From a virus, in the IMG/VR virus record IMGVR_UViG_3300032163_000018, positions 1 through 55,527 of that record: a stretch of 55,527 nt of DNA. The stretch is one strand, 5' to 3'. Numbering within the stretch: the stretch's first letter is position 1; every line of letters starts with the position of its first letter. This document shows positions 2,179 through 37,896 of this stretch, piece by piece. Below the pieces are notes generated by a model, which worked only from the letters and a program-made list of their open reading frames with translations, was not told the origin of the DNA and did no database searches. Both the position numbers and the translations under genes were made by a program.

Positions 2179-2763
2179 ATGGCTCTAGAGCGTAACTGGT
2201 CAGCCATTTCTGCACGTCCTTTAACCTCAGACGGAACCGATTCCGGTAAAGTCACAATCTCTTCCACTAAAAATTTCAAAGTAAAACAACAAGTTTTAAT
2301 CAAAGCCACTACTCAACCAGATTTATTGGTTGAAGTAAAAAGAGTTATTTCCTCTACAGAATTGCTTGTAGGACCCAAAGGGAGTATCAAGCTAAGAACA
2401 AACATATCCTCTTACACTACAGCCTTATCTGCCTCTATATCAGCTCCAGAACAAGAAAGACCGAGTATCTCGCCTGCTGATTATGAAAGATTCGTAATAG
2501 AAGAAGAACCAACTTTAGCTAAAAGAGTAATATTAGTTGATTCTTTAGGTAATAAAATTGATGATGATGACGGTGCAATAGATGTAAACATTGTTAATAA
2601 ATTATTTAAGAAAAAGAAAAATAAAATAACAATGACTTATGATCCAATCACTCAAGACATGGCTACTATAACAACTTTATTAAATGGGATTCCTCAAGAA
2701 ATAGGGACCTTAACTTACGATTCTTTGTCTAATTTGATTGACATAGAAGTAGTGGACGCATAA
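2179..2763 (+). CDS. Small virion structural protein (unknown)
   Basis: 194 residues, beta-rich and Ser/Thr-rich in the N-terminal half, with an acidic stretch (IDDDDGAID, about residues 135-143) and a lysine run (KKKKNK) in the C-terminal half. The gene is 2 bp from the next small gene and sits just upstream of the fibre, which suggests a tail or fibre-attachment component. No family is recognised with certainty. Confidence 0.6.
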   Translation: MALERNWSAISARPLTSDGTDSGKVTISSTKNFKVKQQVLIKATTQPDLLVEVKRVISSTELLVGPKGSIKLRTNISSYTTALSASISAPEQERPSISPADYERFVIEEEPTLAKRVILVDSLGNKIDDDDGAIDVNIVNKLFKKKKNKITMTYDPITQDMATITTLLNGIPQEIGTLTYDSLSNLIDIEVVDA

Positions 2764-2764
2764 T

Positions 2765-2971
2765 ATGGCACAAAATAGAATAAAACCAATGTACAATCCT
2801 ATCGAAGATGAGATTCAATTCATAAATGATTTGGAAATGGGTTGGACTGTAAAAAATATACCAAAAGCATCATTTAAAGTATTAAATGGTTATACAAGAG
2901 TTTATCCAAATTTAACTATTCCAGACGGAATGATTATTGAAGTTGAAGATGGTGGGGAGTTGATCGTCTAG
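2765..2971 (+). CDS. Small beta-rich protein upstream of the tail fibre
   Basis: 68 residues; the C-terminal half (RVYPNLTIPDGMIIEVEDGGELIV) reads like a short beta-roll of the kind used to cap or trimerise fibres. Its stop TAG overlaps the GTG start of the fibre by one base (TAGTG), so the two are translationally coupled. A fibre-associated role is inferred from position. Confidence 0.6.
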   Translation: MAQNRIKPMYNPIEDEIQFINDLEMGWTVKNIPKASFKVLNGYTRVYPNLTIPDGMIIEVEDGGELIV

Positions 2972-5900
2972 TGAGTATTTTAAGAACTAATGAAATAAAG
3001 CCAGTATCTGCACCAGGAATTGGAATAGGTGCGCCTAATATTCAACCCAGTGCTTTAATAAATATACAAAGTACTGAACAAGGTGTTGCATTACCTAGAA
3101 TGACTACAGCACAACGAAATGCTATAGTTTCTCCTATTGAAGGTTTATTGGTTTATAATCTAGACGATGGTAGATTAGAACAATATACTAGCGGTCAATG
3201 GACCGTTGCTGGTAACGGATTATCTCCAGTAAAAAATGTATTAAGGGTAATAAAAAATACAGTTTTAAACGAAAATGATTTTTCTTCCATAAATGATGCA
3301 TTAGCTTCTATTTCTGATAACTCTCCAACAAATCAATATTCTATTGAGATTGGTCCTGGAGTCTTCGTAGAAAATCCTATTCACATGAAGCCTTATGTAT
3401 ATGTTAAAGGTCAAGATTTTGATTCAACTGTTATTGAGGCAAATGATCCTACTGAACATCTAATATTCGCATGTGAATTCTCTTCTATTAGCGATTGTTT
3501 ACTAACAGGATCTACTTTATCAGGCAAAGCATTAATCTATTATGCAAGCACCACTGGTACATTACAAACTGCATTTTGGGCTGAAGATGTAAGATTCGGA
3601 CACGCAGATACATTAGCTATTGCCAATGGAACCTTAGCTCATTCTAATCTTTTTGTAAATAGTTGTAGATGGGGTGGAATATATCAATTCAATACTGGTT
3701 TTATAGCAAAATCATCTGGTATTCCTTTAGGAAGAATTATATTAAGAAATTCTACTAGTTCTAAATTATCTACACCTTTTCCTACTGATATGTTTGTTGT
3801 AGATGGAGTTGGATGCGAATTACATCTTAATTCTATAATATCTAGAACTGGAGAAGTTGGTTTAGGTGGAACAGGAATAAGAGTTAGGAATGGCGGTTTT
3901 CTTAGAATTCTCTCAGCCGATATGGATGGATGGACTAAAGGTCTTTGGGTTGAAGATATAGGAGCAGCGTGTACTGTTATTGGCGGTGTTTTAACTCTTG
4001 TAAATAATACAATTGATGTACAAGTAGATCCTTCTACTTTAACAGGTGGATTAATAGTTGCAGACGGTGATGATACAAAAATCATTCTTAATAGTGCCTT
4101 AACAAATTTTGGATTTATTAGTTTAAGCTTAGAAAATGGAAATATAGTTGTTAGTGGTAAATTAGAACAAATACAACCAGACGGAACGTTTACCGATATT
4201 AGTACATTGGCATCCAATTCTTCTCCTATGGGAATTTTAAGTGATGGAGATATAACTATTCCTATCAGCGGAACTACTGTAACTGTAACTTCTGGAAGTG
4301 GATATTTACAAAAATCAGACGGTAGTTTAAGAAAAATAATCTGGGTAGATACTCCAATAACTCTTCCTAATCATAGTACAAATTATTTATACTTTGATGA
4401 AAATGGTGTATTACAACACAATCCTGTCGTTCCTAATTTTATACAAAATATAATAGTAGGTCGAGTCGTAACTAACAATGGAGATATTCTTATAACGGAA
4501 GAATCTGGGTTATTAGCTACTCATAATTCCAATAATATTGGTGAAGCTTTAAGAAAAGGATTAGGACCTATATATGCTAGTGGGTCTACAATATCAGAAA
4601 CTGGTACAAGAAATTTAACGGCTACTACTGGATCTTATTTTTATGGAGAAAGAAATTTTTTATTGAATGGTGGAAGTCCAATTTCTTTTGATACTTTTTA
4701 TCAAGATGGAAGTGGTGATTATGTAGTAACTGAGAATGATACTCAAATAGATAATACCAAATGGGATGATGGTACTGGTACTTTAGCTTCCTTAACTGCT
4801 AGTTATTATGCTAAACATTCATTATATGCTTTAGGAGATTCTACTGGAGATTATGATAACGAAGTATATTTTACTGTTTATTCACAAGCAGAATATTCCG
4901 TATTAACACTAGCACAACAAGGAGATCTTCCAACTCCTCCGCCTTATTTATCAGAAGCTGTAGTTTTAATTGCTTCAATAATTGTTCGGCAAGGAACTGC
5001 AAATATAATAGAGATTAGAGATGAAAGACCAAGGGTTGGTTTTAAGTCTAGTGGTGTTTCTGCTGCTACTTTTCATAGCGGTCTTCTAGGATTAATAGCA
5101 CCTACTGATGATCATACTCAATATATACACATTGATGGTCGCAGAGCTATGACTGGAGATTTAAGTTTAGGTACACATAACTTAACTAATATTGGTACGG
5201 CTAATGGCGTTACTATAGAGAATCATCATGCGAGGCATCAAACTGGTGGAGCAGACGCTATTCCAACAGTAACCACCTCTATTGATGGGTTAATGTCTGC
5301 TTCTGATAAAACAAAATTAGATGGAATTCCAGCATCAGCAGTTCCTACTTCTCGCACTATAATAGCTGGAGCTGGACTAACTGGTGGAGGAGATTTAAGT
5401 ACAGATAGAACGCTGGATGTGGTAGCTAATGCAGATGGATCAATAATTGTTAATGCAAATGATATTCAAGTAGGAATTCTAGCTACAGATGTTCAACACG
5501 GCAATAGAGGTGGGGGTGGACTACATTCAGTAGCTACAACTTCAGTTGCCGGATTTATAAGTGCTTCTGATAAAACAAAATTAGATACCTTATTAAATGA
5601 AATATTAGTGACTCAAGGAGCAGGATTAACAGCAAATTATTCTGCCGGATCAGTCAGAATAAACGGAACTACCTATACACTTACCGCAAGCTCTATAACA
5701 GTTGCTACAGGAGCAACCAATGGTAGAATTTATGTTGACGTAGATGGAGTAGTAAAATCTACAACTTCCACATCAACTCCAGCAAATGCAGTACCACTAG
5801 CAATCTTTTCAAGTAGCGGTGCAGCTATTACTGCTCTTTCCGATAATAGAACTTTTATTAACAATAATATAACATTTGGTGCGTCAGGAGATATGACTAC

Positions 5901-14339: not shown

Positions 14340-16258
14340 TGTCTGATTCACCATTTACACAATCAATTAGAAAAAACACAGAAGATTCGCATCAAGCGAG
14401 TCCGGCATATGTTATTACTTTTGTTAGATGGGCAAATAGAGATCCGGTAAATTATCAAGATCCACAAAACCCAAACACAGACCCAACACAACAAGTTAGA
14501 GAACCCTTAGTTGTTATAAACGATTGTATCAGTTTAAACGCAGGTAATTCTAAATCAGGATTAAGTTCTAGTTGTACAGCAACTTTGTTAGCTGGTGAGA
14601 TTAATTATTCTACCGCCGTTCATCCGGGCGATTACATGATAGTTAATATGTTAAACTATGAATCAGATGCGGTTAAGGTAGCTCAAAAAGCTTTAGCACA
14701 ACATCCGATAAATAAATACGAAGATGGCTTTAAGGGTGTCTATAAGATACAGAAAGTTAGAAGACGTTTAGTCGTTAATCCAGAGAGCGGCGTTAAACAG
14801 GTAGCTTATACTGTTCACGCTTTTGGCTTTACAGAGTTAAACACTGTAATATATTACAATCCAGCCATATCTGAAAAATTTGCTAATTCTGATGTTCTAT
14901 TTATAGCACAGTTTGCTGATTTTTGGAATCAATTCGCTACTTCTAAAGATAACACTAGGAAAGTACAAATAGTGTTGAAATACTTAATTCAGGCTATATT
15001 AGGCAAAGGAATAAATAGAAACGATTTTACTATTCCAGCTACGCAAAATAATCAATTCATAATTCCTCAATTGTTAGGTAAATTACTTAACCGACCAATA
15101 TCTAAAGTTGCTACTGATATTTACAATTTCTATTTTGGTATATGGAGTTTGGCAACCGGATCTACAAACGAAACCCCAGGACAAAACTTTAACAGTATGT
15201 TTGAACAGTGGGATCAAGATAGTAATTTTTACAGAGTTAAGGGCAATAGAGAAATGCAAGGATGGCGTTTATTAGCTGCTGAGAATTGGAACTTTAAGCA
15301 GATATGGTCTATATTAAGTTCTTACCTTAACGGTGCGATAAATGAAATGTACACAACTTATAGAGTTGGTCCTGACAATTTTGTTTATCCATCTATAATA
15401 GCCAGACAAAAGCCTTTTAGCTCGGATCACTTTTTAAATCCAAATAGAATTAATAACGTAGATAATTTACCAGCAGTTAACACAACTCATACTAAATTTT
15501 CTTCTTTACCTAGATGGAGGATTTCTCCTGATTTATTGTATGATATTGACTTAGGTAAAGACGAAGCATCTAGAGTTAATTTTGTACAAGTTTTTGGTCG
15601 CAGTATAGCGGCTTCTGATCAAGAGAATCAAGCATCTCAGATAGGGCTTGGTAACTTTTTCTTTAATCCTATAGACGTTAAAAGACACGGATTAAAACCT
15701 TCAGTTATAACAACTGAGTTTGATTTCCCTGGCGGAACTGGTGAAAACGTCAAACAATCAAGAGCTTGGGCTTACTTGTTGTTTGATATGATGTATGCTG
15801 GAGAGTTAAGAGAATCTGGGACTTTAACTTTTTACGGGATACAAGATCCTATTTCTGTTGGCGATAATATAGAATTTGACAATAACATATATCACATAGA
15901 ATCAATAAACCATATATTTCAAATAGCACCAGACGGCAAGAAGTTTTTTAGAACTTCATTAACTTTATCTTTTGGCACTAGTCTTGATAGTGATGATACG
16001 GCTCCTGTTTATCCTCAAATGGAAAACACATTTGCAGACAACGAAAGAGCTGATGATTACACTAACGAAAGAATATTGCCAGGGAATTCAGACACTCAAG
16101 ATATTCCATATGATTCTACTAGAAAATATGGTGAAAAAATTAGAGACGGTGTTGATAAATCGTTTACGTTGGATGAAAACGTTAAGCCTAGAATTTCTAG
16201 TATAGAATATCAAGATGACGGAAGCAGCGATAATAAGAAAAAGAAAGGTAAGAAGTAA
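14339..16258 (+). CDS. Baseplate hub-like virion protein (639 aa)
   Basis: A large soluble protein immediately after the tape measure and before the spike, the usual position of the hub. It has beta-rich segments with GDYMIVNML and GTLTFYGIQDPISVGDNI, the latter resembling late-domain hub strands. The C-terminus is a charged lysine tail (KKKKGKK). It probably closes the tube and carries the spike. The assignment rests on position and composition. Confidence 0.6.
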   Translation: MSDSPFTQSIRKNTEDSHQASPAYVITFVRWANRDPVNYQDPQNPNTDPTQQVREPLVVINDCISLNAGNSKSGLSSSCTATLLAGEINYSTAVHPGDYMIVNMLNYESDAVKVAQKALAQHPINKYEDGFKGVYKIQKVRRRLVVNPESGVKQVAYTVHAFGFTELNTVIYYNPAISEKFANSDVLFIAQFADFWNQFATSKDNTRKVQIVLKYLIQAILGKGINRNDFTIPATQNNQFIIPQLLGKLLNRPISKVATDIYNFYFGIWSLATGSTNETPGQNFNSMFEQWDQDSNFYRVKGNREMQGWRLLAAENWNFKQIWSILSSYLNGAINEMYTTYRVGPDNFVYPSIIARQKPFSSDHFLNPNRINNVDNLPAVNTTHTKFSSLPRWRISPDLLYDIDLGKDEASRVNFVQVFGRSIAASDQENQASQIGLGNFFFNPIDVKRHGLKPSVITTEFDFPGGTGENVKQSRAWAYLLFDMMYAGELRESGTLTFYGIQDPISVGDNIEFDNNIYHIESINHIFQIAPDGKKFFRTSLTLSFGTSLDSDDTAPVYPQMENTFADNERADDYTNERILPGNSDTQDIPYDSTRKYGEKIRDGVDKSFTLDENVKPRISSIEYQDDGSSDNKKKKGKK

Positions 16259-17310
16259 TGTTTGATAACGACGATTATAATCCAATACTGCCTTCTTCTT
16301 TGTTAGCCTTCGATCATGACGGAGTTACAGATGCTTATAAAAATTCTAAGAGTAATTTCTCACTAAAAACTGGCGTTATAATAAAGAGTTATGATATAAA
16401 CGATTCTCAAAACGTTTCAGGCGTTGCGGTTGAGTATGACGTTCTAACTATTGATCAGAGTAGAGATCATGGAACTTCTGGAGTTATATATAAGAAATGT
16501 CTCTCTGTTGATGGTTTTGGTGGACTCTCCGACTTTATGGAAGCAAAACTAAGACCTGCGTCTGATAAGAAAGTCATAAAAGACGCAGAAATAGGCAATA
16601 GTGATGGCGCAATAGTTATGCTTCTATGTATCAACGGAATAGAGGATAGAGGCGTTATAATAGGCTCACTAAAGCATCCAGGCAGAAAAACAAGATTAGA
16701 TAAGGAAGCTGGACTTCACCTTGAGGGAGAGTATAACGGCTTAAATTGGAAGATAGACAAAGATGGTGCGTTAGCGGTTACTTTTAGATCTGCTACAGAT
16801 TCTAAGGGTAAGGCTTCTGATGAGAAATCGGGTGGATCTAATTTTAAGATAGAGAAAGACGGATCTATAGAATTAAACGATAATAACAAAGAAAAGATAA
16901 GAATTGATAAAACTAATAAAACAGTTACTATAAATGCTGAGAAAGATATATCAAACACTACAGAGGGTAACTTTAACGTAACTGCTAAACAATCAACGAA
17001 TGTAACGACTACAAAAGATATATTAATGGCAGCATCAGGTAATTGTAAACTTACTAGTCAGGGAGATTTTACTGTTGAAGCACAGGCGTCAGGCAACTTA
17101 AAAGCTAGTTCTTGGAACATTAAGGCTGATGATTTTATTGAAGCCAGAGCTGGAAGTATTAGATTAAGTTCATCTCAAGTAATGGTCGGACAAGGTGGAA
17201 CACCAGCGGTTATAAACTCAACGCAAGTTCTTACGTTTGTTCCTCCTGGAATTCCTTCTATTGGGATTATGATTGGACCTTTTAGCGGATCTGTTTTTAT
17301 TGCTTCATAA
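16258..17310 (+). CDS. Baseplate central spike protein (gp5/gpV/VgrG-type)
   Basis: 350 residues. The N-terminal part looks like an OB-fold. From about residue 150 the chain becomes a regular repeat of short strands (for example GSIELNDNNKEKIRI, then TEGNFNVTAKQS, then GDFTVEAQASG), the signature of a trimeric beta-helix spike. No lysozyme domain is present. The start overlaps the previous stop (TAATG). It is the last gene of this tail block and would form the membrane-piercing tip. Confidence 0.75.
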   Translation: MFDNDDYNPILPSSLLAFDHDGVTDAYKNSKSNFSLKTGVIIKSYDINDSQNVSGVAVEYDVLTIDQSRDHGTSGVIYKKCLSVDGFGGLSDFMEAKLRPASDKKVIKDAEIGNSDGAIVMLLCINGIEDRGVIIGSLKHPGRKTRLDKEAGLHLEGEYNGLNWKIDKDGALAVTFRSATDSKGKASDEKSGGSNFKIEKDGSIELNDNNKEKIRIDKTNKTVTINAEKDISNTTEGNFNVTAKQSTNVTTTKDILMAASGNCKLTSQGDFTVEAQASGNLKASSWNIKADDFIEARAGSIRLSSSQVMVGQGGTPAVINSTQVLTFVPPGIPSIGIMIGPFSGSVFIAS

Positions 17311-22566: not shown

Positions 22567-22682
22567 AACAAAACAAAGATTCTCACGACCAATTCAAAAC
22601 ACAACAAGAAATTTGGGAATTTTTATCTGCTAATGAAAATAATAAAATTATTCAAAATTGTGATTTTAGGGATACAAAATGA
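22560..22682 (+). CDS. Small protein (40 aa), GTG start
   Basis: GTG at 22560 preceded by GAGGT. Product has QQEIWEFLSANENNKIIQN and ends in TGA that overlaps the next ATG (ATGA). Overlaps and spacing support it as a real coupled gene. Function unknown. Confidence 0.5.
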   Translation: MLKQNKDSHDQFKTQQEIWEFLSANENNKIIQNCDFRDTK

Positions 22683-22978
22683 AACTCGAACCAATTGTAA
22701 AAAATTCAGATGGCACAATTCACCACATGACTCATTATGAGGCATTAGAATATTGTGCGAAAAACAATTGTCGATTGCCAACACTCGATGAATTAATTAA
22801 TTTTTATAGCGATGAGGATTATATTAAAAATGAAGATGATAAAAATTTGTTTTGGTCGTCGTCAGTCAATCCTAATGATCCTTACGTCGCCTACGTCTTC
22901 TATGGCTTCAATGGTGTCATCTACTACGTCAGCCGCTACTTCAAAGATGCGGTCCGCTGCGTGGAAGAAAATAAATGA
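22679..22978 (+). CDS. DUF1566-like protein with DGR-type variable C-terminus
   Basis: 99 residues. RLPTLDEL, then FWSSS and a terminal VRCV, follow the layout of DUF1566/C-type-lectin-fold proteins that are classic targets of diversity-generating retroelements. In residues 69-88 nearly every codon is NNC (TAC, GTC, GCC, TTC, GGC, ATC, AGC, CGC), which is foreign to this AT-ending genome. Such codons are expected if AAC codons of a template were mutated at adenines. The local GC jump stops at the gene's end. Likely a small binding protein whose surface varies; no reverse transcriptase is in the window. Confidence 0.7.
   Translation: MKLEPIVKNSDGTIHHMTHYEALEYCAKNNCRLPTLDELINFYSDEDYIKNEDDKNLFWSSSVNPNDPYVAYVFYGFNGVIYYVSRYFKDAVRCVEENK
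22862..22963 (+). other. Putative DGR variable repeat
   Basis: From TCA (Ser62) to GTG (Val95). Of the 20 codons at 22883-22942, 17 end in C, including four TAC for Tyr plus TAC-like V, A, F, G, I, S and R codons that all differ from AAC only at the two A positions. Codons kept as TAT, AAT and GGT interrupt the run, as expected for sites not encoded as AAC in the template. Neither template repeat nor reverse transcriptase was found here. Confidence 0.6.
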
Positions 22979-26153: not shown

Positions 26154-26789
26154 ATGCAAATTAACAGAGAAATACTTAAGAATTTTAATCCATGTCTTGA
26201 TCGTTACAAAAATTATCTTGAAAATTATCCTAATTTCGACGGATCATTTGATGAATTTCTTGATTTAAATAATATTACATATAATGATAAAATATGGGTT
26301 GCTCAAAGAGTCTTGAATAAAAATCAATTAATTCGTTTTGCACTTCTTTGTGCCGAAAGCGTTTTACATATCTTTGAGGAAAAATACCCAGAAGATAAAA
26401 GACCAAGAGATTGTATTGAATATTTGATGAAGATTGATGATTTTTCAAATTTAACAGATGAACAAAGAGAAGAGATTTTAAAACATAAAAATGCTGCTTC
26501 TTCTGCTTCTTCTGCTGCTTATGCTGCTGCTTATGCTGCTTCTTCTGCTGCTGCTTATGCTGCTACTTATGCTGCTGCTGATGCTGCTGATGCTGCTGCT
26601 TATGCTGCTGCTGATGCTGCTAATGCTGCTGCTGCTAATGCTGCTTATGCTTATGCTGCTGCTTATGCTGCTGATGCTTATGCTGCTGCTGATGCTGCTG
26701 CTTATGCTGCTGCTTATGCTGCTGCTGCTGCTAGATTAGATCAACAGAATCTTAATATTCAGTTTCTCAAAATGGCAGCTAGTTTGTAA
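26154..26789 (+). CDS. Alanine-repeat protein 1 (putative Imm5-like phage protein)
   Basis: 211 residues. A conserved N-terminal domain (about 1-110, with VLHIFEEKYPEDKRPRDCIEY) resembles the putative-immunity/Imm5-like phage family. It is followed by about 85 residues of almost pure Ala with periodic Tyr, Asp, Asn and Ser. The repeat uses only GCT for Ala and NNT for the others. The C-terminus QNLNIQFLKMAASL is shared with paralogue 2. The repeat is likely a long helix or helical stack with variable length. Function not known. Confidence 0.65.
   Translation: MQINREILKNFNPCLDRYKNYLENYPNFDGSFDEFLDLNNITYNDKIWVAQRVLNKNQLIRFALLCAESVLHIFEEKYPEDKRPRDCIEYLMKIDDFSNLTDEQREEILKHKNAASSASSAAYAAAYAASSAAAYAATYAAADAADAAAYAAADAANAAAANAAYAYAAAYAADAYAAADAAAYAAAYAAAAARLDQQNLNIQFLKMAASL
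26491..26730 (+). repeat. GCT-based trinucleotide repeat, gene 1
   Basis: About 240 bp of GCT units interrupted by TAT, GAT, AAT, ACT and TCT. It is prone to slippage in steps of three. The +1-type frame reads almost pure Leu/Met, so any out-of-frame slip would create a very hydrophobic tail. Confidence 0.8.
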
Positions 26790-35026: not shown

Positions 35027-35328
35027 AAAATCTTTTTAAACTTTTTCTTCTGTTTGCAATACCGTCTATTTTAATATTAACGGTAGGGTTTGTTATTTTA
35101 TGGTCAGATAAGATAGGAAAGAAGAAAAAGAATAAAAAGAAGAAAGATCATGTCCGCTTAGCGCCAGGAACTTATAGTATAAGTTCCACCGCAAAACCCA
35201 CGCTTTTACCTACAGATACTCAAATTATTAAAATCAACGAAGGATTAGAAGATATTAAAAATGGTAATTATGCTTATAAGGTTATAACTACGCCGAAGAA
35301 AAATAAAAAACCAAGGAAAAAGAAATGA
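35011..35328 (+). CDS. Membrane protein with basic tail (105 aa)
   Basis: Start taken at ATG 35011 behind GGAG; ATG 34999 would add four residues. One hydrophobic helix (LFLLFAIPSILILTVGFVIL) then a lysine-rich cytoplasmic tail. ATGA overlap with the KTSC-oxygenase gene. Confidence 0.5.
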   Translation: MVEFLENLFKLFLLFAIPSILILTVGFVILWSDKIGKKKKNKKKKDHVRLAPGTYSISSTAKPTLLPTDTQIIKINEGLEDIKNGNYAYKVITTPKKNKKPRKKK

Positions 35329-36419
35329 AAATTCAAGTACAAAAGGTTAAATCAAGTAATATTGAATCTGTAGGTTATAATTCAATTACTAAGGATCTTT
35401 TGGTAGTTTTTAAGGGAAATAATGAATATCTATATAATAATGTTCCTCAAGAGCATTATGAAAAAATGATAGATTCTACGATTTCTCCGGGTTCATATTT
35501 AGCTAAAAGTATTAAGGGTCATTTTGAATATTCTAAAGTAAAAGATGTGGCTACTACGGAACCATTGCTCAAAAATGACGGAACCGCTGCCCAAAAACAA
35601 TCAATTAAAACAATGAGTCTTAAGGGTTTGGAATTTAAAGCAAAAGAACTGGTTGAGAATCTTAAAGAAAGTGGTTTTGTATTGATTACGGGTCATGATC
35701 TAACCAAAGAAGATATAGACTTATTTTATTCCGAATGGGAAAATTTCTTTAATTCTGATGAAAAGAATTTTTATCTATACAACGAAGATCAATCTGGATA
35801 TTTCCCTATGGAATCTGAAAAAGCTAAGTATAGCGACATTCCTGACTTAAAAGAATTTTATCAATATTACGAAGGTTTAAGCATAGATCCAATAATGGGA
35901 CTGACCAAGCATATTAGACAGGATTTGAACCAATTAGGTCATTTTCTTCTTCTTCAAATCTTTAAAGGACTGCCCGAAGAAATTAGAAACTCTACTAGCG
36001 AACCAATCCCAAACATGGTTTTGGATTCTAAGGGTGCTATGTTTAGGATTATTAATTATCCTCCAATGACTAATATTCCAGTTGGAGCGGTTAGATCTGC
36101 TGCTCACGAAGATATAAATCTTATCACTTTACTCCCAATGTCTACGGCGGAAGGGTTACAGATTCTTGGAAATAATGGTGAATGGATTGATGTTGGTGGA
36201 GATCCTCATGCTATTATAGTAAATGTTGGAGATATGCTATCTGCGGCTACTAAGGGCTATTTAAAATCAACAACTCATCGTGTAGTTAATAAGAACATGG
36301 ATAAACCTAGGCTTTCAGCTCCTTTGTTTATTCATCCAAGACCGGAAGTTGTTTTGTCTGAAGGATTAACTGCTGGACAGTATTTAGAAGAAAGACTTAA
36401 GCAGATAAGGGCAAAATGA
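35325..36419 (+). CDS. KTSC domain fused to 2OG-Fe(II) oxygenase (IPNS-like)
   Basis: 364 residues. Residues about 10-72 form a KTSC domain (SVGYNSITKDLLVVF, then KSIKGHF). The rest is an isopenicillin-N-synthase-type 2-oxoglutarate oxygenase: Fe ligands HED (H261, D263) and H318, 2OG-binding RLS (R329, S331). Such enzymes hydroxylate or desaturate small molecules, proteins or nucleobases. KTSC is linked to nucleic-acid handling proteins. A nucleic-acid or nucleotide modification role is inferred, not proved. Confidence 0.75.
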   Translation: MKIQVQKVKSSNIESVGYNSITKDLLVVFKGNNEYLYNNVPQEHYEKMIDSTISPGSYLAKSIKGHFEYSKVKDVATTEPLLKNDGTAAQKQSIKTMSLKGLEFKAKELVENLKESGFVLITGHDLTKEDIDLFYSEWENFFNSDEKNFYLYNEDQSGYFPMESEKAKYSDIPDLKEFYQYYEGLSIDPIMGLTKHIRQDLNQLGHFLLLQIFKGLPEEIRNSTSEPIPNMVLDSKGAMFRIINYPPMTNIPVGAVRSAAHEDINLITLLPMSTAEGLQILGNNGEWIDVGGDPHAIIVNVGDMLSAATKGYLKSTTHRVVNKNMDKPRLSAPLFIHPRPEVVLSEGLTAGQYLEERLKQIRAK

Positions 36420-37170: not shown

Positions 37171-37896
37171 ATGCAAATTAACAAAGAAGTATTAAAAAGT
37201 CTCGACCCGTGTTCAGATCGTTACAAAAACTATCTTGAAAATTATCCTAATTTCGACGGATCATTTGATGAATTTCTTGATCTTGAAAACATTACTCATA
37301 ATGATAAAATTTGGGTTGCTAAAAGAGTATTAAATACAAATCAAATAGTACATTTTGGATTATTATGTGCCCAAAGTGTTTTACATATCTTTGAGGAAAA
37401 ATATCCAGAAGATAAAAGACCAAGAAATTGTATTGAATATTTAATAAAAATTGATGATTTTTCAAAAGTAACAGATGAACAAAGAGAAGAAATTTTAAAG
37501 CATAGAGACGCTGCTGCCGATTCTTATGCTGTTTATGCTGCTGCTAATGCTGCTGTTTATACTGCTGCTAATGCTGCTGTTTATGCTGCTGATACTGCTG
37601 CTAATGCTGCTGTTTATGCTGCTGATGCTGATGCTGCTGCTGTTTATGCTGCTGCTAATGCTGCTGTTTATGCTGCTGATACTGCTGCTAATGCTGCTGT
37701 TTATGCTGCTGATGCTGATGCTGCTGTTTATGCTGCTGCTAATGCTGCTGTTTATGCTGCTGATACTGCTGATACTGCTGCTAATGCTGCTGTTTATACT
37801 GCTGTTTATGCTGCTGATGCTGATGCTGATGCTGCTGCTCGATTAAACCAGCAAAATCTTAATATTCAGTTTTTAAAAATGGCGGCTAGTTTGTAA
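37171..37896 (+). CDS. Alanine-repeat protein 2 (paralogue of 26154)
   Basis: 241 residues. The N-terminal domain (about 1-112) is closely similar to paralogue 1, including long identical DNA runs. The repeat is longer (about 110 residues) with periodic Val-Tyr, Asp, Asn and Thr, and the C-terminus QNLNIQFLKMAASL is the same. Both genes have their own strong promoter. A recent duplication with independent repeat growth is indicated. Confidence 0.65.
   Translation: MQINKEVLKSLDPCSDRYKNYLENYPNFDGSFDEFLDLENITHNDKIWVAKRVLNTNQIVHFGLLCAQSVLHIFEEKYPEDKRPRNCIEYLIKIDDFSKVTDEQREEILKHRDAAADSYAVYAAANAAVYTAANAAVYAADTAANAAVYAADADAAAVYAAANAAVYAADTAANAAVYAADADAAVYAAANAAVYAADTADTAANAAVYTAVYAADADADAAARLNQQNLNIQFLKMAASL
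37510..37842 (+). repeat. GCT-based repeat with 84-bp higher-order unit, gene 2
   Basis: Trinucleotide repeat in which 37642-37725 and the sequence from 37726 share an 84-bp (28-codon) unit, with a 9-bp internal duplication in the second copy. The frame-shifted reading is again Leu/Met only. Confidence 0.75.

Follow-up and report, generated by a model that had tools for sequence, protein, structure and literature searches.

Among described systems, the DGR of Bordetella phage BPP-1 has a C-type-lectin target gene, mtd, whose 3' end is an adenine-directed variable repeat (VR) with a GC-rich constant end; its template repeat (TR), Avd and reverse transcriptase (RT) lie beside mtd, and it requires a GC-rich hairpin downstream of the VR (PMC3240598). 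Remote targets, set apart from the RT and TR, are known from Thiohalocapsa PB-PSB1 (PMC10907252) and from cyanobacteria (PMC7517822), where they share a genome with the DGR. Epsilon crAss-like phages (PMC11054128) carry a VR-bearing lectin target, their receptor-binding protein, with no working RT, and have sister phages with complete cassettes. The ORF at 22679-22978 of the phage DNA analysed here (the window, a linear IMG/VR fragment of 55,527 bases) resembles the BPP-1 target in its adenine-directed 3' VR, lectin-type protein and GC-rich constant end, but the window contains neither TR, Avd and RT nor a hairpin of that kind. It resembles the remote targets in its distance from any RT and TR, but lies on a phage, and it resembles the epsilon crAss-like targets in lacking a working RT, but none of 51 related phage records holds a complete cassette. 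We conclude that this ORF is very probably a DGR target whose VR belongs to a DGR lineage of the Bdellovibrionota.

Tail sheath and baseplate genes are present in the window, and the baseplate protein encoded there shares 31% identity with its counterpart in Myxococcus phage Mx1 (169,621 bp). Related contigs, whose best segments are up to 63% identical to the window, reach 150-177 kb; the window therefore represents only about a third of the phage genome, with about two thirds missing. In the fragment seen, the phage is apparently a large, lytic-type myophage with a DGR target alone. Mx1-like phages form a large metagenomic family (L009-L088, contigs up to 177 kb), for which the INPHARED phage set gave a single match. 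The target gene belongs to an accessory stretch made up of small genes. About 5 kb separate it from the preceding hub/tail-lysozyme-like gene (16258-17310), and 23 kb from the next baseplate gene (46028). In a synteny comparison, only 4 of 45 phage records contained relatives of a gene neighbouring the target, so the region is accessory and uninformative on when the target arrived. Elsewhere in the window, 26154-26789 and 37171-37896 encode two paralogues whose long repeat tails are rich in Ala, Tyr and Asp, the former matching phrog_38757 and the latter Imm5_like (PF21805, 5e-8), and 35325-36419 encodes a fusion of a KTSC domain with a 2OG-Fe(II) oxygenase.

The features of the target gene are as follows.

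22679..22978, + strand: target gene, an ORF for a 99-aa stand-alone Lcl_C/DUF1566 protein (predicted C-type lectin fold)
22679..22852, + strand: constant N-terminal part, codons 1-58, with the AT-rich codon usage of the phage at large (GC3 14/58)
22850..22963, + strand: VR, codons 58-95 (FWSSS...AVRCV), placed by an ungapped match to a bacterial TR (L107, below) in a register common to three TRs
22883..22942, + strand: diversified core, codons 69-88, dominated by NNC (17/20)
22949..22963, + strand: putative IMH-like constant end GCGGTCCGCTGCGTG (AVRCV), matching the L107 TR at 14 of 15 positions

The codon usage of this gene is anomalous within the phage. Only 10.5% of codons phage-wide end in C, in agreement with the earlier note, which had also described codons 69-88 as nearly all NNC. 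We found 17 C-ending codons among these 20 against 4.1 expected from the phage's own synonymous codon usage (Poisson-binomial P = 4.8e-10), the exceptions being TAT at 75, AAT at 78 and GGT at 79. When all 13,014 windows of 20 codons were ranked by NNC content, the top 24 lay inside this ORF, and the maximum elsewhere, across 52 other scored ORFs, was 8. No codon in 69-88 ends in G, and all four Val codons are GTC. GC3 rises from 14/58 in codons 1-58 to 26/37 in codons 59-95 and falls to 0/4 in codons 96-99 (P = 1e-5); with this step at both VR borders, the anomaly coincides with the stretch from WSSS to VRCV. The variable region is thus not confined to codons 69-88, as had been proposed, but runs over about 22850-22963: a VR of 38 codons, flanked on both sides by AT-rich codons and ending 12 nt before the stop codon.

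The product matches the Pfam profile Lcl_C (DUF1566, PF07603) with E=3e-6, below the curated cut-off. An AlphaFold2 model (pLDDT 76, pTM 0.71, from a shallow five-row alignment) has as its top Foldseek match in the PDB the C-terminal domain of Legionella Lcl (8q4e, E=9e-5), followed by many C-type lectins, including the C-terminal domain of Bdellovibrio Bd2740, and a search of a viral library matched DUF1566 phage proteins. On this predicted fold, the 99-aa protein is a stand-alone lectin-type domain; no export signal was evident by eye. Its VR lies at the 3' end of the coding gene in a protein of predicted C-type-lectin fold, as in DGR targets, and the profile match, the predicted fold and the GC3 borders together bear out the earlier assignment to the DUF1566-type targets with a WSSS start and a VRCV end. 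No relative of the protein was found by tblastn in phages or plasmids or in the viral_contigs set, and no close relative was found. Among related phages, none of 51 records had an Lcl_C target and none of 48 a VR-like pattern.

Candidate templates were sought with a degenerate pattern derived from the phage VR (NG, NNC codons, VRCV), run over 84,980 species genomes. The pattern preselected similarity in codons 78-95 only; codons 59-77 and the TTTTGG start were not part of it. A first pattern returned nothing from genome_contigs; the successful one returned 17 loci, six of which were DUF1566-type targets or templates. The other eleven were chance matches, nine of them rpoB-like by translation. 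One of the six, on contig JANXMF010000085.1 of Pseudobdellovibrionaceae MAG 336R (hereafter L107), is a complete DGR.

1242-1850: L107 target, with its VR from 1719
1966-2328: L107 Avd (bAvd, PF22296 2e-10)
2528-2641: L107 TR
2675-3946 (-): L107 RT (RVT_1, GNLTSQ motif)

Among 369 genomes of the phylum, 4 contained the pattern when up to 3 mismatches were allowed, and none contained its reversed form. Two further loci, L125 (genome G399) and L126 (genome G183), each have an RT, Avd, TR and target, and their RTs are 45-50% identical to that of L107. In all three DGRs the target, Avd, TR and RT fall within about 3-4 kb. An RT tree placed the Bdellovibrionota RTs apart from 79 viral RTs with full support, in a tree weakened by long branches and row choice. 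In the literature searched, DGRs and Bdellovibrio are mentioned together in two papers, in one of them within the reference list alone.

Several features of these bacterial loci were seen in passing. A similar serine recombinase gene lies near two of the DGRs (L107 4405-5088, L126 5025-5534), hinting that the cassette is mobile. The L126 target (1-1154) stands by an intact TR and RT, and its 3' VR is out of frame (RNTHECGPVRWALG vs RNNTNAVRCVGR), a possible frameshift. The L107 VR (1719-1850) is two codons longer than its TR, the difference lying within an AAC run, and may reflect template contraction since the last retrohoming or an assembly collapse. In the deltaproteobacterial MAG Loclat bin-17204 (L105, L109, L111), several DUF1566 targets and template-like copies lie on separate contigs, and remote targets are therefore likely there too.

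The phage VR and the three TRs are alike in detail: each spans 37 codons from W to VRCV, aligned ungapped in the same register, with a WSxS start, NG and R anchors and an [AS]VRCV end, and the targets of the three DGRs are lectin-type proteins. They differ in that the bacterial targets have 202-489 aa (that of L126 being cut by the contig end) and stand beside Avd, TR and RT, whereas the phage target has 99 aa and stands alone. Homology to the L107 TR starts at TTTTGG and stops at GTG; over the 38 codons of the VR, 86 of 114 bases are identical in an ungapped match, against 52 of 114 at the runner-up place in the window. In codons 59-77, outside the search pattern, 41 of 57 bases agree with L107. 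The constant end GCGGTCCGCTGCGTG is also present in the L107 VR. A search downstream of the VR found no GC-rich hairpin or cruciform at the 4-34 bp distance of BPP-1-type target sites, and the L107 target likewise lacks one. In a comparison of the phage VR with the 2.07 Mb of fetched loci, all the top places (62-83 of 111) went to TRs and VRs of Bdellovibrionota, and the best of the 80 viral DGR loci included reached 55 of 111. All the viral DGR loci found have at least 47% GC.

The differences between the phage VR and these heterologous templates concentrate at template adenines. Over 37 codons the phage VR is identical to the L107 TR at 83 of 111 positions; 15 of the 31 A sites are changed, as against 13 of the 80 non-A sites (P = 0.0008). 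It differs from all three TRs at 11 of 25 columns that are always A against 3 of 71 that are never A (P = 1.1e-5). For comparison, the L125 TR and its own VR, a positive control, differ at 16 of 28 A and 1 of 83 non-A sites. As in DGRs, the changes fall at first and second codon positions (14 of the 15 A-site changes against L107) and the template third base is kept: third bases of the core equal those of the L107 TR in 19 of 20 codons, the TAT, AAT and GGT exceptions included, and these three codons stand where the L107 and L125 TRs end in T. The proposal that the NNC codons are AAC altered at its A positions needs amending for GCC 71, GGC 76 and CGC 86, which are probably fixed template codons, because related TRs have identical codons there. 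The DGR reading itself is strengthened by three real TRs in register over 37 codons and by changes concentrated at their adenines. None of L107, L125 and L126 holds the phage's cognate TR, which was not found; even the closest TR departs from the VR at 13 of 80 non-A sites. The search beyond the window that the earlier note had called for thus yielded a template and RT in the probable host lineage, the Bdellovibrionota, and neither the exact cognate TR nor the host itself.

The window holds none of the parts of a complete cassette (RT, TR, Avd), as the earlier note had observed of the RT and TR. No DGR-type RT was detected in its 55.5 kb, either with RVT_1 or with a profile of the relevant RT lineage, and PF22296 gave no Avd. 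The best candidate TR for the phage VR had 23 non-A mismatches in 102, and no TR/VR pair of any kind was found with a criterion that does recover pairs from most of the scanned viral DGR loci. A retroelement located elsewhere, as had been suggested, is consistent with all these findings. Where it would lie divides the readings; those that follow, in trans, in cis or no longer active, are shares of the main claim and not additions to it.

The reading we favour, tentatively, is that the phage target is diversified in trans by a chromosomal DGR of a Bdellovibrionota host. We prefer it because the searches found TRs of the L107 kind in bacterial genomes alone, with none in viral contigs, because RTs are missing from the phage family, and because trans action within one genome has been described (PMC10907252). 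The host would be Bdellovibrio-like, judging solely from the kinship of the templates and from the single isolate in the phage family, which came from Myxococcus.

Rather less probable is a complete DGR of the same lineage (RT, Avd and TR) in the ~100 kb of unsequenced phage genome, with 22679-22978 as its remote target. The window is a linear fragment from a family whose members attain 150-177 kb, and remote targets inside one genome are known (PMC10907252, PMC7517822), but RVT_1 was found in 0 of 51 related phage records (fragments and near-complete contigs, several near full length). The TR pattern had 0 matches in 2.9 million viral contigs (viral_contigs), a set from which records near the window were possibly left out; two VR patterns returned nothing or junk from the same set, and an exact 18-mer of the constant end had one match there, unrelated and due to chance. 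The bacterial DGRs of this lineage are, moreover, compact, whereas the phage target is flanked on either side by over 22 kb free of DGR parts.

We consider it unlikely that the VR or the whole target was captured from a bacterial DGR by recombination and is no longer diversified, although the target is alone in the window with no machinery, and several epsilon crAss-like phages retain a target with the RT broken or missing (PMC11054128). The sequence after GTG that is common to the L107 TR and VR (TCGGGTCGCTAGGC) is missing from the phage, which also speaks somewhat for such a relic. Capture should have brought flanking homology, but homology ends at the VR borders; and template third bases in the core of a gene whose codons are otherwise AT-rich and phage-like suggest rewriting after the gene had adapted. 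That the tract is not the work of a DGR, but a GC-rich patch recombined from a GC-rich DUF1566 gene (such genes occur in many bacteria, and GC-rich donor codons also end in G or C) or a chance codon bias, is highly improbable given a core with no G-ending codon and Val as GTC in 4 of 4 cases, TR differences concentrated at adenines (P=1e-5) and a chance probability for the NNC tract of P=5e-10.

With a host DGR acting in trans, the TR of a Bdellovibrionota cassette (target-Avd-TR-RT) would be copied by adenine-mutagenic reverse transcription into the phage VR, 38 codons ending at VRCV. The phage gene would supply a small C-type-lectin scaffold in which the VR recodes about a dozen residues, presumably varying a binding surface. 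As the target stands alone in the sequenced third, a DGR located elsewhere would have done the rewriting. Its likeliest site is the chromosome of a Bdellovibrio-like host, from which it would act in trans during infection; a cassette in the phage's unsequenced part is less likely. Phage-like codons in the rest of the gene, with template third bases in the VR, suggest that rewriting followed the gene's adaptation or is ongoing. We infer each of these elements, namely retrohoming and its timing, the host, trans action and the binding role. The 99-aa protein may serve as an adhesin on the virion, as a decoy for a lectin-type sensor of the host or as some other binder; a role as antigen sensors has been proposed for bacterial DGR targets (PMC10907252).

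Metagenome surveys of DGRs seek an RT beside the target, and a target-only phage would escape them; one large survey states its inability to see remote targets (PMC8144416). Our results offer a concrete pairing, of a phage target with one DGR lineage of the Bdellovibrionota. If trans action is true, a virus can use its host's hypermutation system, across replicons.
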